From positions 62,001 to 126,000 of the forward strand of contig NZ_JADF01000018.1 in the NCBI RefSeq assembly GCF_000518245.1: a stretch of DNA of 64,000 nt, given 5' to 3'. This DNA comes from Brachyspira alvinipulli ATCC 51933. GTDB taxonomy: Bacteria; Spirochaetota; Brachyspiria; Brachyspirales; Brachyspiraceae. This document shows, in pieces, positions 21,755-25,984 of this stretch (positions within the stretch are counted from its first letter, which is position 1; every line of letters starts with the position of its first letter). A program made the position numbers and the translations under genes. The notes under the pieces are model-generated. The model saw nothing but the letters and a program-made list of their open reading frames with translations, was not told where the DNA came from and ran no database searches.

Positions 21755-21871
21755 TATGAATTATTAAGGAGTTTGATTTATTGTCAAGCTCCTTTTTATT
21801 TAGTCAAAAAATTATATTTTACATTTTTATATATTTTTATATTTTATTTATATATACAAATTAAGAGGTTT

Positions 21872-23254
21872 ATGATGATTAAAAATATTAATGAGATTAC
21901 AAAAACTTTAGGATTTAAAATACTTATAATAGTGATATTAGGGCTTTTGCTTTTAATTCCTATGGCATTTATAAACAGTGTTGTAAGAGATAGGATTAAC
22001 TATCAAAGGGAAGCTGTATCTTCTATAATAGAGCCTGTAGGAGATAGTGCTAATATACAAGGTATAGTTGTTGCCATACCATATTTAACTAGGGTTATTG
22101 ATAGCGAAACTAAAGAAATAAGCTATGTAAGAAAATATATTTTTTATATGCCTAATGAATATAATATTACTGGGGATGTTGAAGTTTCTAGTTTAAGCAG
22201 AGGTATATTTAAAGCTCCTATTTTCAATTCTAAATTAAATATCACAGGAAGATTTGATAAATATAATGCGGAAATATATAATTTAGATGAAAATAATAAT
22301 ACTATACTTTATGATGAGGCTATGGTTATATTAGGTATAGGAAACAAAAAGAATCTTATGAAACTTCCTAATATATTGGTTAATGAAAATGAAGAGCTTA
22401 AATATTATGAGAAAAATATTAATATATCTTTGAATATGTTTAATAATAAGTTTTTATATACTATTTCAAGAGATAATATATTGAATGGATTTAATTTTAA
22501 TATTACAATGGATATTCAAGGCGGAAATTCTCTTATTATCACTCCTTTAGCTTCTGAAAATACTTTTAAAATATCTTCAAAATGGAAAGATCCTAGTTTT
22601 ACAGGTGGATTTTTACCTACAAAAAGAGAAGTTAATAATGATGGATTCAATGCCGAGTGGCAAATAGCTAGTTTTAATACGGCATTCACTAAATATTGGA
22701 CTAGCGAAGAAAATGCCAATAGAGCAAGTAGTACAGACAATAATCAATTTTGGACTGAGGAGCAAAATGTTAATAGATCAAATAATAATGTTTTAATATC
22801 TTTTTTACTTCTTAATGATAATTATCAAAAAACATCAAGAAGTGTAAAGTATGCTATATTATTTATATTCATTCCGTTTTTTCTACTATTTTTATGCGAG
22901 GTGCTTTCAAAGAAAAGAATTCACCCAGTTCAATATATATTAATAGGTATAGCTAATGCAATATTCTACTTACTCCTTTTAGCTATATCAGAGCATATTA
23001 ACTTTAATATTAGTTATTTCATAAGTGCATTAATGGTAACGGCTTTAACTTCTATTTATATAGGCTACATAATTAAATCTCCTAAATATACTGTTTCAAT
23101 GGCAATAGTAGAGGCTTTAATTTATGTATTCTTATTTGGAATATTACAATTAACAGACTATGCATTATTAATGGGTACATTAGGATTATTTGCTGTTATT
23201 GCTCTTGCTATGTACTTTACACGTAATGTGGATTGGTATGGAGAAAATAATTAA
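21872..23254 (+). CDS. creD: CreD-like inner membrane protein
   Basis: A polytopic membrane protein of about 460 residues resembling CreD (CreD/Cet family). One N-terminal helix (ILIIVILGLLLLIPMAF) is followed by a large extracytoplasmic beta-rich region with a well-conserved end (FTGGFLPTKREVNNDGF, FNTAFTKYW) and about five C-terminal helices. The biochemical role is not firmly known; in enterobacteria it belongs to the CreBC regulon and is linked to envelope integrity. No creBC genes are nearby. I place the start at the tandem ATG codons 21872/21875, which follow AAGAGG; the frame is open further upstream but encodes hydrophobic residues unlike the family. Confidence 0.85.
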   Translation: MMIKNINEITKTLGFKILIIVILGLLLLIPMAFINSVVRDRINYQREAVSSIIEPVGDSANIQGIVVAIPYLTRVIDSETKEISYVRKYIFYMPNEYNITGDVEVSSLSRGIFKAPIFNSKLNITGRFDKYNAEIYNLDENNNTILYDEAMVILGIGNKKNLMKLPNILVNENEELKYYEKNINISLNMFNNKFLYTISRDNILNGFNFNITMDIQGGNSLIITPLASENTFKISSKWKDPSFTGGFLPTKREVNNDGFNAEWQIASFNTAFTKYWTSEENANRASSTDNNQFWTEEQNVNRSNNNVLISFLLLNDNYQKTSRSVKYAILFIFIPFFLLFLCEVLSKKRIHPVQYILIGIANAIFYLLLLAISEHINFNISYFISALMVTALTSIYIGYIIKSPKYTVSMAIVEALIYVFLFGILQLTDYALLMGTLGLFAVIALAMYFTRNVDWYGENN

Positions 23255-23288: not shown

Positions 23289-23317
23289 TTGAAAATATTT
23301 TTATATTAATATATAAT
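23289..23317 (+). promoter_or_regulatory. Promoter of the met leader and metYX transcript
   Basis: TTGAAA (23289-23294) and TATAAT (23312-23317) with an ideal 17-bp spacer. The predicted transcription start near 23324 lies about 29 nt before the leader ORF, giving a leader of about 195 nt before metY. Confidence 0.75.
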
Positions 23318-23352
23318 TTATTATCATATAATTATACATATAGGAAATTTTG

Positions 23353-23427
23353 ATGAAACCATTTGTTATTATAAATAAACTCCTTTGCCTCATGCAAATG
23401 CGTATCTTTATAATGATGGCTGTATAG
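23353..23427 (+). CDS. Methionine-rich leader peptide (attenuation control of metYX)
   Basis: A 24-codon ORF not previously assigned to any gene family I know. ATG at 23353 is preceded by AGGAAA (23342-23347). The peptide begins MKPFVIINK and has Met at positions 1, 14, 16, 21 and 22, ending in TAG at 23425-23427. Four internal Met codons in the last 11 residues is a very high density for so short a frame. It lies between a consensus promoter and a terminator directly upstream of O-acetylhomoserine sulfhydrylase. A segment overlapping codons 21-24 can pair with the 5' arm of the terminator. I infer a classical leader peptide: stalling at Met14/16 when charged Met-tRNA is scarce would favour the antiterminator and transcription into metY. 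Confidence 0.75.
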   Translation: MKPFVIINKLLCLMQMRIFIMMAV

Positions 23428-23463
23428 TATAATTTATATTTTATTTTGTAATTTCAGCCGTCA
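23414..23463 (+). promoter_or_regulatory. Predicted antiterminator pairing of the met leader
   Basis: TGATGGCTG (23414-23422) can pair over 9 bp with CAGCCGTCA (23455-23463), with a single G-U wobble. The second element includes most of the 5' arm of the terminator (23457-23465), so the two structures exclude each other. The first element lies about 14 nt downstream of Met16, just beyond the footprint of a ribosome stalled there, and would be covered by a ribosome at the stop codon. Confidence 0.65.
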
Positions 23464-23485
23464 AAGTTTTGACGGCTTTTTTGTT
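23457..23485 (+). terminator. Rho-independent terminator/attenuator before metY
   Basis: gccgtcaa (23457-23464) pairs with ttgacggc (23469-23476) around a 4-nt loop, followed by a run of six Ts. It lies between the leader ORF and the metY ribosome-binding site, so unless bypassed it would stop transcription before metY. Confidence 0.88.
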
Positions 23486-23519: not shown

Positions 23520-24815
23520 ATGTCAAGAGAATTAAAATTTGAAACATTAGCTGCTCATGCAGGGCAGGATTATAATGATACATTTGCAAGCAGAGGAGTA
23601 CCTGTTTATAGGACAAGTTCTTATTTGTTTAGAGATTCTAAACATGCAGCTGATTTATTTGATTTGAAAGAATTAGGTTATATTTATACAAGACTAGGAG
23701 ATCCTACAGCAGATGTTCTTGAAAAAAGAATAACAGCTTTAGAGGGAGGTAAGGCTTCGATAGCTGTTTCATCCGGAACAAATGCTATATTTTATACAAT
23801 AATTACTATATGCGAGGCTGGAGATGAAATAGTTTCTTCGTATAGTTTATACGGCGGTACATATTCTCAATTTGCTGCTATACTTCCTAAATTGGGCATT
23901 AATACTACTTTTGTAGATGCTAAAAATCCTGAAAATTTTGCTAAGGCTATTACTGATAATACTAAGGCAATATATATAGAAACAATTTCAAATCCTTCAT
24001 TAGATTTTACAGATATAGAGGAAGTTTCTAAAATAGCACATAATGCCGGCATACCTTTAATAGTTGATGCTACATTTACAACTCCTTATCTGCTTCAAAC
24101 TATTAAGCATGGTGCAGATATAGTAATTAATTCTCTTACTAAATGGATAGGAGGACATGGCAATGCTATAGGAGGTATTATAACTGATTCCGGTAATTTT
24201 AATTGGCAAAGCGACAAGTTTCCATTATTTTCAAAACCTGATTCTAATTATCATGGTCTTCGCTGGGCTTATGATTTACCTGATGAACTTAAAAGCATAG
24301 CATTTGCTTTAAGAGTTAGAACTGTTCCTCTTAGAAATTTAGGTGCTTGTCTTTCTCCTGATAATTCTTGGATATTCATTCAAGGGATAGAATCTTTAGC
24401 TTTGAGAATGGAGAGACATTCATATAATGCTTTAAAGGTTGCTGAGTTTTTGGAGAAAGATAATAGAGTTGAATGGGTTAGATATCCTGGACTTAAAAAT
24501 GACCCTTCATATAAAACAGCTAGTAAATATTTAAAAGATAAATTCGGAGGAATGGTTGTATTCGGTATTAAAGGCGGATATGAGGCTGCTGTTAAATTTA
24601 TAGACAATATAAAATTATTTTCTCATTTGGTTAATGTTGGAGATGTTAAGAGTTTGGTAGCCCATCCTGCTTCTACTACACATTCTCAATTATCTGAAGA
24701 AGAGCTTATAAAGGGCGGAATAAGTAAAAACTTTATAAGACTTTCTATTGGCATAGAGCATATAGACGATATACTTTATTATTTGGATGAGGCTTTAACT
24801 ATAGCAAGTAAATAA
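23520..24815 (+). CDS. metY: O-acetylhomoserine aminocarboxypropyltransferase (sulfhydrylase)
   Basis: A PLP enzyme that joins O-acetylhomoserine and sulfide to give homocysteine, the direct-sulfhydrylation route to methionine. At 431 residues it has the family length. Visible features are [10 protein letters not shown] at the N-terminus, [15 protein letters not shown] (56-70), SSGTNAI (84-90) and the PLP Lys208 in [12 protein letters not shown] strong AAAGGAG site lies before the ATG. The next gene, metX, makes its substrate, so the two form a functional pair. Expression is probably controlled by the Met-codon leader and attenuator immediately upstream. Confidence 0.96.
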
Positions 24816-24880: not shown

Positions 24881-25984
24881 ATGAGAAGTATAAGAAAAAA
24901 TAAAAAAGAACAAAAAATTAATGAGCAGGAAAAAACTGAAATTAAATATTTAAATTATGAGAAATCTTTCAAATTTGAAAATGGAGTTTCTATAAATGAA
25001 TTAACTATAGCTTATACAACAAACGGACATTTAAATGTTCATATGGATAATGCTATTTTGGTATGTCATGCTTTTACAGGTGATGCTGATGTACTTTCTT
25101 GGTGGAGTAATTTTGTAGGCAAGAAGAAAGCCATAGATACAGATAAATATTTTGTAATATGTTCCAATGTTTTAGGAGGATGCTCAGGTACTACAGGTCC
25201 TTCATCTAAAAAGCCTAACAGTAATTTATATTATGGAACAGATTTTCCTACTTTTACAATTAAAGATATAGTTAATGTTCAAAAGATACTAATTGATTCT
25301 CTTGGAATAAAAAAGCTTTATTGTGTTGTAGGCGGGTCTATGGGAGGCATGCAGGTTTTACAATGGACAGCATCTTATCCTCAAATGATGGAAAAAGCTA
25401 TAATAATAGCGAGCTCAATGAGTCATTCTCCTATGCAGATAGCATTAAATGAAATAGCAAGACAGGCTATAACAGAAGATACAGAATGGTATGGCGGAAA
25501 ATATTATGGAATGTCATCTCCAGACAGAGGGCTTGCTTTGGCTAGAATGCTTGGACATATTACTTACATGAGTGAAGAATATATGAGAAAGAAGTTCGGA
25601 AGAAAGAGAAAAGAGGCCGTTAAATATTTTACACCTTCATTTGAAGTCGAAAATTATCTTCATTATAATGGAGAAAAATTTACAACAAGATTTGATGCAA
25701 ATAGTTTTTTATATCTTACTAAGGCTATGGATTTTTTTGATGTTAAAGATGAAATAAAGAAAATAAAAAATAAGAAGAAAGTATCTCTTAAAAATGTTTT
25801 AGTAATATCTTTTATATCTGATTGGCTTTATCCTAGTTCTCAGTCAGCTGATATTGCTATTACATACAGATATGCCAATATAGATACATCATTTTGCGAA
25901 ATAGAATCGAATTATGGACATGATGCTTTTTTGATAAAGAATCCTGAGCAGACAAAGTATATTAAAGACTTCTTAAATGGATAA
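24881..25984 (+). CDS. metX: Homoserine O-acetyltransferase
   Basis: An alpha/beta-hydrolase-fold enzyme that acetylates homoserine using acetyl-CoA, supplying the substrate of MetY. It is 367 residues long. The nucleophile Ser153 lies in VVGGSMGGMQVLQW; the acid Asp314 is in SDWLYPSSQS and the base His347 in NYGHDAF. The oxyanion region CHAFTGDAD (62-70) and NVLGGCSGTTGPSS (97-109) match the MetX family. The first 22 residues are unusually lysine-rich and low-complexity. The gene follows metY after 65 nt without a terminator, so it should share its transcript. Acetyl versus succinyl preference is not tested by the sequence. Confidence 0.94.
   Translation: MRSIRKNKKEQKINEQEKTEIKYLNYEKSFKFENGVSINELTIAYTTNGHLNVHMDNAILVCHAFTGDADVLSWWSNFVGKKKAIDTDKYFVICSNVLGGCSGTTGPSSKKPNSNLYYGTDFPTFTIKDIVNVQKILIDSLGIKKLYCVVGGSMGGMQVLQWTASYPQMMEKAIIIASSMSHSPMQIALNEIARQAITEDTEWYGGKYYGMSSPDRGLALARMLGHITYMSEEYMRKKFGRKRKEAVKYFTPSFEVENYLHYNGEKFTTRFDANSFLYLTKAMDFFDVKDEIKKIKNKKKVSLKNVLVISFISDWLYPSSQSADIAITYRYANIDTSFCEIESNYGHDAFLIKNPEQTKYIKDFLNG

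Follow-up and report, generated by a model that had tools for sequence, protein, structure and literature searches.

A putative methionyl-tRNA-sensing leader peptide attenuator upstream of metY-metX in the spirochaete genus Brachyspira

Introduction

The his, leu, thr and trp operons use leader-peptide attenuation, and methionine genes are usually controlled by a SAM riboswitch, a T-box or MetJ. To our knowledge, methionine is conspicuously absent from the textbook list of amino acids that are sensed by leader-peptide attenuation, perhaps because methionine also starts every peptide. Up to 2010, the known leader peptides came from Proteobacteria and Actinobacteria alone, and a study of that year added His leaders in bacilli (PMC2965389). 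A survey of Actinobacteria gave no RNA element for methionine operons (PMC1262725). In S. lividans, a Met-containing leader peptide, metL (MSTTSDRTPATEATTTPGARCMCRRMCAF), has been predicted upstream of metNIQ, and the passages describing it give no comparative support (PMC8079986). A leader-peptide control logic for methionine has hardly ever been proposed before.

Here, we analyze the region upstream of metY-metX in Brachyspira alvinipulli ATCC 51933 together with its counterparts across the genus. Working from sequence, we document a short open reading frame (ORF), its Met codons, the alternative RNA pairings and their geometry, their conservation, and the reuse of the element before metX and metNI, and we conclude that this region is very probably a ribosome-mediated transcription attenuator that senses charged methionyl-tRNA.

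Results

Features of the leader region

The window, i.e., the whole stretch of DNA that was analyzed, comprises 64,000 nt of B. alvinipulli ATCC 51933 (GCF_000518245.1, NZ_JADF01000018.1 positions 62,001-126,000, forward strand). The region of interest contains the following features, all on the plus strand of the window:

23289-23317, plus: sigma-70-type promoter of the leader transcript, TTGAAA-N17-TATAAT (consensus scan; conserved in 22 metYX loci)
23341-23346, plus: Shine-Dalgarno-like TAGGAA of the leader ORF (TAGGAA or AGGAA in most related leaders)
23353-23427, plus: predicted leader peptide ORF, 24 codons, MKPFVIINKLLCLMQMRIFIMMAV followed by a stop (present in 22 of 22 orthologous loci)
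23365-23375, plus: segment 1, which can pair with 23407-23417 as an alternative to the antiterminator (pairing in 19 leaders)
23392-23400, plus: putative control codons Met14-Gln15-Met16, ATG CAA ATG (conservation; masked folding)
23414-23422, plus: segment 2, the 5′ strand of the antiterminator (TGATGGCTG), overlapping the Met21 and Met22 codons
23455-23463, plus: segment 3, shared by the antiterminator (as its 3′ strand) and the terminator (as its 5′ side)
23456-23482, plus: intrinsic terminator with a 9-bp stem, 4-nt loop and T-run (stem-loop 23456-23477)
23520-24815, plus: metY, O-acetylhomoserine sulfhydrylase, which makes homocysteine (TIGR01326, 610.7 bits, cut-off 495.1)
24881-25984, plus: metX, homoserine O-acetyltransferase (NF001209, 437.7 bits, cut-off 331)

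A sequence-only reading of this DNA had proposed the TTGAAA-17-TATAAT promoter, a 24-codon ORF containing Met codons, a strong terminator, a 9-bp antiterminator that excludes it, and genes for MetY and then MetX downstream, and our analysis recovered each of these parts. The promoter has 11 of 12 consensus matches; promoter-like matches are equally common in shuffles of this AT-rich stretch, whereas the site itself is conserved genus-wide, mostly as TTGACA. The ORF has AGGA 5′ of its start and Met at codons 14, 16, 21 and 22. The window contains 341 ORFs that start with ATG and span 15-40 codons. Among these, the leader ORF is one of five that share the top Met count (four), and it is the only one with a strong terminator, by our own strict definition, at most 90 nt downstream. 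The terminator stem (9 bp, -13.8 kcal/mol, z -4.25) was matched in stability by none of 200 shuffles, and one terminator-like site was observed at the locus against 0.1 expected from shuffles. The antiterminator, formed by 23414-23422 with 23455-23463, consists of 9 bp with one G-U pair and is mutually exclusive with the terminator. Rfam matches at the locus, including a weak Phe_leader match over the terminator, were sub-threshold chance matches only.

A conserved inverted repeat, TTTGC-CTCAT-GCAAA, lies at 23384-23398 of the window, spans codons 11-16 and places the Met14 codon at its loop. This repeat may be an RNA pause hairpin, or a mere consequence of a conserved peptide; considered as a separate element, it was rejected, being weakened in two leaders (L013 and L016).

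Conservation across the genus and two constraints on the ORF

Our genus sample consisted of 26 Brachyspira genomes, 22 of which encode a close MetY (at least 84% identity). The complete leader, i.e., promoter, Met-rich ORF of 21-27 codons, antiterminator strand at the end of the ORF and intrinsic terminator, is present in all 22, with the caveat that these leaders share descent and that counts across genomes are not independent observations. The -35 element is TTGACA or TTGAAA in the 22 metYX loci, and a Shine-Dalgarno-like site, a start and a stop for the ORF occur in all 22 as well as in five further leaders, described below. The sequence-only reading had suggested examining whether the parts co-vary across Brachyspira, and we found the ORF, Met codons, antiterminator and terminator to be kept jointly in 22 of 22 metYX loci and in the five further leaders. 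Typical leader peptides are MKTIIVMNKMFCLMQMCMFNNDGCK and MKSIIVMNQMLCLMQMRMFNNDGCII, and, in the B. pilosicoli group, MNNAVIINMLCLMQMQKIITAA. All 22 metYX leaders share the core C-L-M-Q without variation, with the next Met missing in a single one (L020); at the nucleotide level, ATG CAA (Met-Gln) is invariant in all intact leaders, and the second ATG is lost only in that same leader.

Two different constraints appear to act on the ORF. In codons 2-18 of eleven aligned leaders, we counted 12 synonymous and 18 nonsynonymous variants, where random change is expected to be 16% synonymous; this synonymous excess argues that the 5′ half is translated, and judged by its pattern of variation this half behaves as coding. 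The 3′ half, by the same kind of comparison, is conserved as RNA, even across frame changes. The reading frame of the ORF end is altered by a one-base difference in the clade of the window and by a four-base difference in B. pilosicoli, and TGATGGCTG/ACGGCTG and its pairing with CAGCCGTC survive these changes, with a stop again located 3 nt after segment 2. It is the frame change in this clade that gave the window's peptide its Met21 and Met22. They cannot be control codons, because they are inside segment 2, where a stalled ribosome would cover the antiterminator. The sequence-only reading had listed all four Met codons; in our model, only Met14 and Met16 can be usable control codons in the window genome.

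The nucleotide sequence TTTGCCTCATGCAAATG is well conserved, as would be expected if the region were a metabolite-binding riboswitch or other RNA element with the ORF a by-product. We consider this very unlikely, since no Rfam family was found at cut-off, the variation in the 5′ half follows codons with its excess of synonymous change, there is no large conserved fold besides the switch, and the in-frame start is retained even as its codon varies between ATG, GTG and TTG, with the stop staying 3-8 nt past segment 2.

In the relatives, 99.4% of cells in the terminator alignment are paired. For the antiterminator, this value is approximately 91-92.4% in register and at most 61% when one strand is slid, and its U-G pair becomes C-G in B. 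pilosicoli, the metX leaders and one metN leader. Both helices show almost no two-sided covariation, as expected because segment 3 serves two partners, and their support comes from conservation and from one-sided changes consistent with pairing. The 8-bp core of the segment 1:segment 2 helix is 94.7% paired across 19 leaders, a value to be read against the 85% that is also obtained after a 3-column slide, and one of its pairs is exchanged on both sides (AU/GU/GC).

Constrained folding and the proposed mechanism

Nascent transcripts ending with segment 3 were folded for 17 metYX, 3 metNI and 2 metX leaders (22 in all) under a masked ribosome footprint that extended 16 nt upstream and 12 nt downstream of the first base of the A-site codon; these dimensions follow what is generally known of bacterial ribosomes. 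When the footprint was placed on the Met of Met-Gln, 21 of the 22 leaders were predicted to form the antiterminator. None did so when it was placed on the stop, and the full RNA then gave the terminator in all 22. In a scan over every codon, antitermination ends sharply, and for the window's leader the edge follows codon 18. Nearly all leaders have their last Met codon 0-2 codons inside this edge, and outside the clade of the window no Met codon lies past it. In other clades, Met occupies 5 of 17 codons inside the antitermination zone (binomial p approximately 3e-5 against 2.2% Met); the window's leader is the weakest case, with 2 of 17 zone codons being Met (p approximately 0.05 alone). In these models, the Met-codon geometry of the leader is that which Met-tRNA-dependent attenuation requires.

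At equilibrium, a ribosome at Met14 did not prevent the full-length RNA from preferring the terminator in 20 of 22 leaders, and therefore the switch would have to be kinetic, decided during transcription in the manner of known attenuators. Of the 22 ribosome-free nascent RNAs, 14 preferred the antiterminator (2:3) and eight preferred other folds.

We propose that, as RNA polymerase produces the leader transcript, the small ORF is being translated by a ribosome. With ample Met-tRNA, the ribosome would reach the stop 3-8 nt past segment 2 and cover this segment, and the terminator (3:4) would form ahead of metY. When Met-tRNA is short, the ribosome would wait at Met14 or Met16 (in relatives, at Met7, 10, 14, 16 or 18) with its downstream edge ending before segment 2, so that segments 2:3 could pair and transcription could continue into metY-metX. 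We infer that cells starved for Met show such stalling and that read-through is altered by it. A point against this model is that a lack of Met would be expected to slow translation initiation at the leader too, with the initiator tRNA also becoming limiting.

Met-tRNA sensing leaves the conserved Cys12 and Leu13 unexplained. One alternative is joint sensing of the sulfur amino acids, in which control would be shared between Met codons and codons for Cys (Cys12 and, in many species, Cys17). The MetY of the methionine pathway takes sulfide and not cysteine, as is established for O-acetylhomoserine sulfhydrylases, and in two genomes (G001 and G002) the zone of the metX leader lacks Cys and retains three Met; we therefore regard joint sensing as unlikely, even though Cys, at only 0.7% of codons, is present at position 12 in all 22 metYX and the three metN leaders (at 11 and 12 in G018), inside the antitermination zone, and the predicted S. 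lividans metL peptide likewise mixes Cys and Met (PMC8079986).

Alternatively, the nascent peptide itself (CLMQM or SMMQM) could arrest the ribosome on free Met or SAM rather than through a lack of Met-tRNA, which would fit with the conservation of Cys12, Leu13 and Gln15 in metYX leaders and with the exclusively synonymous change at positions 12 and 13. Analogues of such arrest are TnaC for tryptophan and the MTO1 region of plant CGS1 for SAM. Here, product-induced arrest at the Met codons would free segment 2 and turn the genes on, which is the wrong sign for a biosynthetic operon. In addition, Cys-Leu is replaced by Ser-Met or Asn-Ser in metX and metN leaders, and the conservation of these residues may partly reflect the small hairpin TTTGC-CTCAT-GCAAA. 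We judge arrest highly improbable, and retain methionyl-tRNA sensing as the most likely reading of this leader.

Recurrence and decay elsewhere in Brachyspira

A covariance model built from the metYX leaders matched 28 places in the 26 Brachyspira genomes at E < 0.001. Of these, 22 are the metYX leaders, five are other leaders and one is a decayed copy. Since there was no other match at this threshold in these genomes, the element accompanies methionine genes only. In G001 and G002, a close MetY is absent and a free-standing metX is preceded by a leader whose ORF starts with TTG and has SMMQM instead of CLMQM as its core. A second copy stands upstream of metN-metI in G000 (the genome of the window), G018 and G020, where the ORF starts with GTG and its core is SMQMTM; in the window's genome, this copy is located on the minus strand (L096:3377-3646, G000:C7), upstream of a seemingly older metN promoter. 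MetN has a NIL domain, and the best matches of MetN and MetI are methionine transporter models, below the curated cut-offs. The older metN promoter, which is shared with other species, seems to be retained downstream of the terminator of the metN-metI leader, and the attenuated transcript therefore probably adds to basal expression. In the other 23 genomes, the model found no leader before metN, and most of these have a plain TTGACA/TATAAT promoter there.

The decayed copy is in G017, where metY and metX are pseudogenes, the leader reads MKAIIIMNRMQMPMLNK, and the antiterminator and terminator have decayed (L084, G017:C19:43600-46600); with metN intact, this species probably relies on imported methionine. 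G019 has neither metX nor the leader. The sequence-only reading had named loss of the ORF or its Met codons with the terminator kept as the pattern that would speak against it; we did not find this pattern in the genus, and in G017 the switch decays along with the genes. This joint decay, the genus-wide comparison and the recurrence before metX and metNI all support the leader-peptide attenuation first read from the window.

These data also bear on whether the hairpin is an ordinary terminator of the upstream gene (21773-23254) accompanied by a chance ORF. It does lie between two co-directional genes. However, a promoter conserved across the genus separates the upstream gene from the ORF, and the DNA 5′ of this promoter is unrelated between many species, while the leader persists, which assigns the leader to metY rather than to the preceding gene; recurrence before metX and metNI contradicts a chance ORF. 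This explanation is vanishingly improbable.

Beyond Brachyspira, the model gave no match in the sister genera (G026-G030), and by eye nothing leader-like was seen upstream of metX in those sister genera that possess it. Upstream of distant MetY relatives (Goldiibacteriota, Verrucomicrobia and Capnocytophaga), nothing similar was seen by eye and there was no Rfam match.

Known regulators of methionine genes were searched for in the same 26 Brachyspira genomes. The SAM-I riboswitch (RF00162) and the T-box (RF00230) were found in none of the 26 using covariance models that were positive in control genomes, and MetJ (PF01340) was found in none, with the E. coli control positive; the search for other SAM riboswitch classes covered the window and six loci. 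We tentatively suggest, as a possibility that we regard as somewhat doubtful, a small Brachyspira Met regulon (metYX, free-standing metX and metNI) in which the attenuator was copied between operons, in place of SAM riboswitches, T-boxes and MetJ, and in which a ribosome-free read-through state evolved because methionine serves both as the amino acid sensed and as the initiator. Failed initiation in severe Met starvation would then also switch the genes on.

Two further observations were made in these genomes. In G015, metX is interrupted, with the open-frame match stopping near residue 307 and the remainder in another frame with stops (L079, L081; G015:C8:1655544-1656613). In G001 and G002, a divergent metY (43% identity) is preceded by different Met-rich leader ORFs, MIKNLFNLSNIASCKFYFSFAFSMMMRVVAR and MSSFISLNLLNNASCVFSFSLSMMMRVCAR, each followed by a stop (L085, G001:C1 approximately 2206540-2206640, minus strand; L023 approximately 340-440, G002:C187). 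These ORFs have a strong Shine-Dalgarno site and a GCGCG hairpin over the ORF end, and no T-run. Their core pattern is absent from the rest of 393 spirochaete genomes, and they are possibly a second, differently built Met leader.

Discussion

Our analysis indicates that a leader in these gut spirochaetes most likely turns on the genes for methionine synthesis, and in a few species for import, when ribosomes lack methionine. A complete, genus-wide Met attenuator in spirochaetes would fill a gap among the attenuated amino acids, and would explain how methionine genes are controlled in Brachyspira without the known sensors that were tested. The Brachyspira leader would also be a clean system for studying attenuation by an amino acid that doubles as the initiator.

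At the sequence level, the Brachyspira leader has most of the structural features that define the leader-peptide attenuator class. As in the trp, his, thr, leu, ilv and phe leaders of Proteobacteria and the trp leaders of Actinobacteria, there is a short ORF rich in codons for the product, and, as in the classical amino-acid attenuators in general, the antiterminator and terminator are mutually exclusive, a ribosome at the stop codon would cover segment 2, and the targets are biosynthetic. The Brachyspira leader differs from these in that methionine would be the amino acid sensed and in being found in the phylum Spirochaetota. In addition, its control codons are few and scattered (M-Q-M) where classical attenuators have a run, and, unlike in those systems, the free RNA is not uniformly in the 1:2 hairpin. 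In other bacteria, SAM riboswitches and Met T-boxes likewise attenuate transcription of methionine genes, whereas the sensor in Brachyspira would be a translated ORF.

The His leaders before hisS/hisZ in bacilli (Naville and Gautheret 2010, PMC2965389) are also found outside the Proteobacteria and Actinobacteria, where they replace a T-box, and differ from the Brachyspira leader in amino acid, genes and phylum. The S. lividans metL also places a Met-containing leader peptide before methionine transport genes; unlike the Brachyspira leader, it is leaderless and no typical intrinsic terminator was found for it (PMC8079986), and its peptide shows no resemblance by eye to the Brachyspira leaders. 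We found no Met attenuator with a terminator in the open-licence literature, although another report may exist; the one earlier prediction of a Met leader peptide that we found there is that of S. lividans (PMC8079986). The class of mechanism is known, and the specificity for methionine, together with a complete terminator switch, appears to be new.
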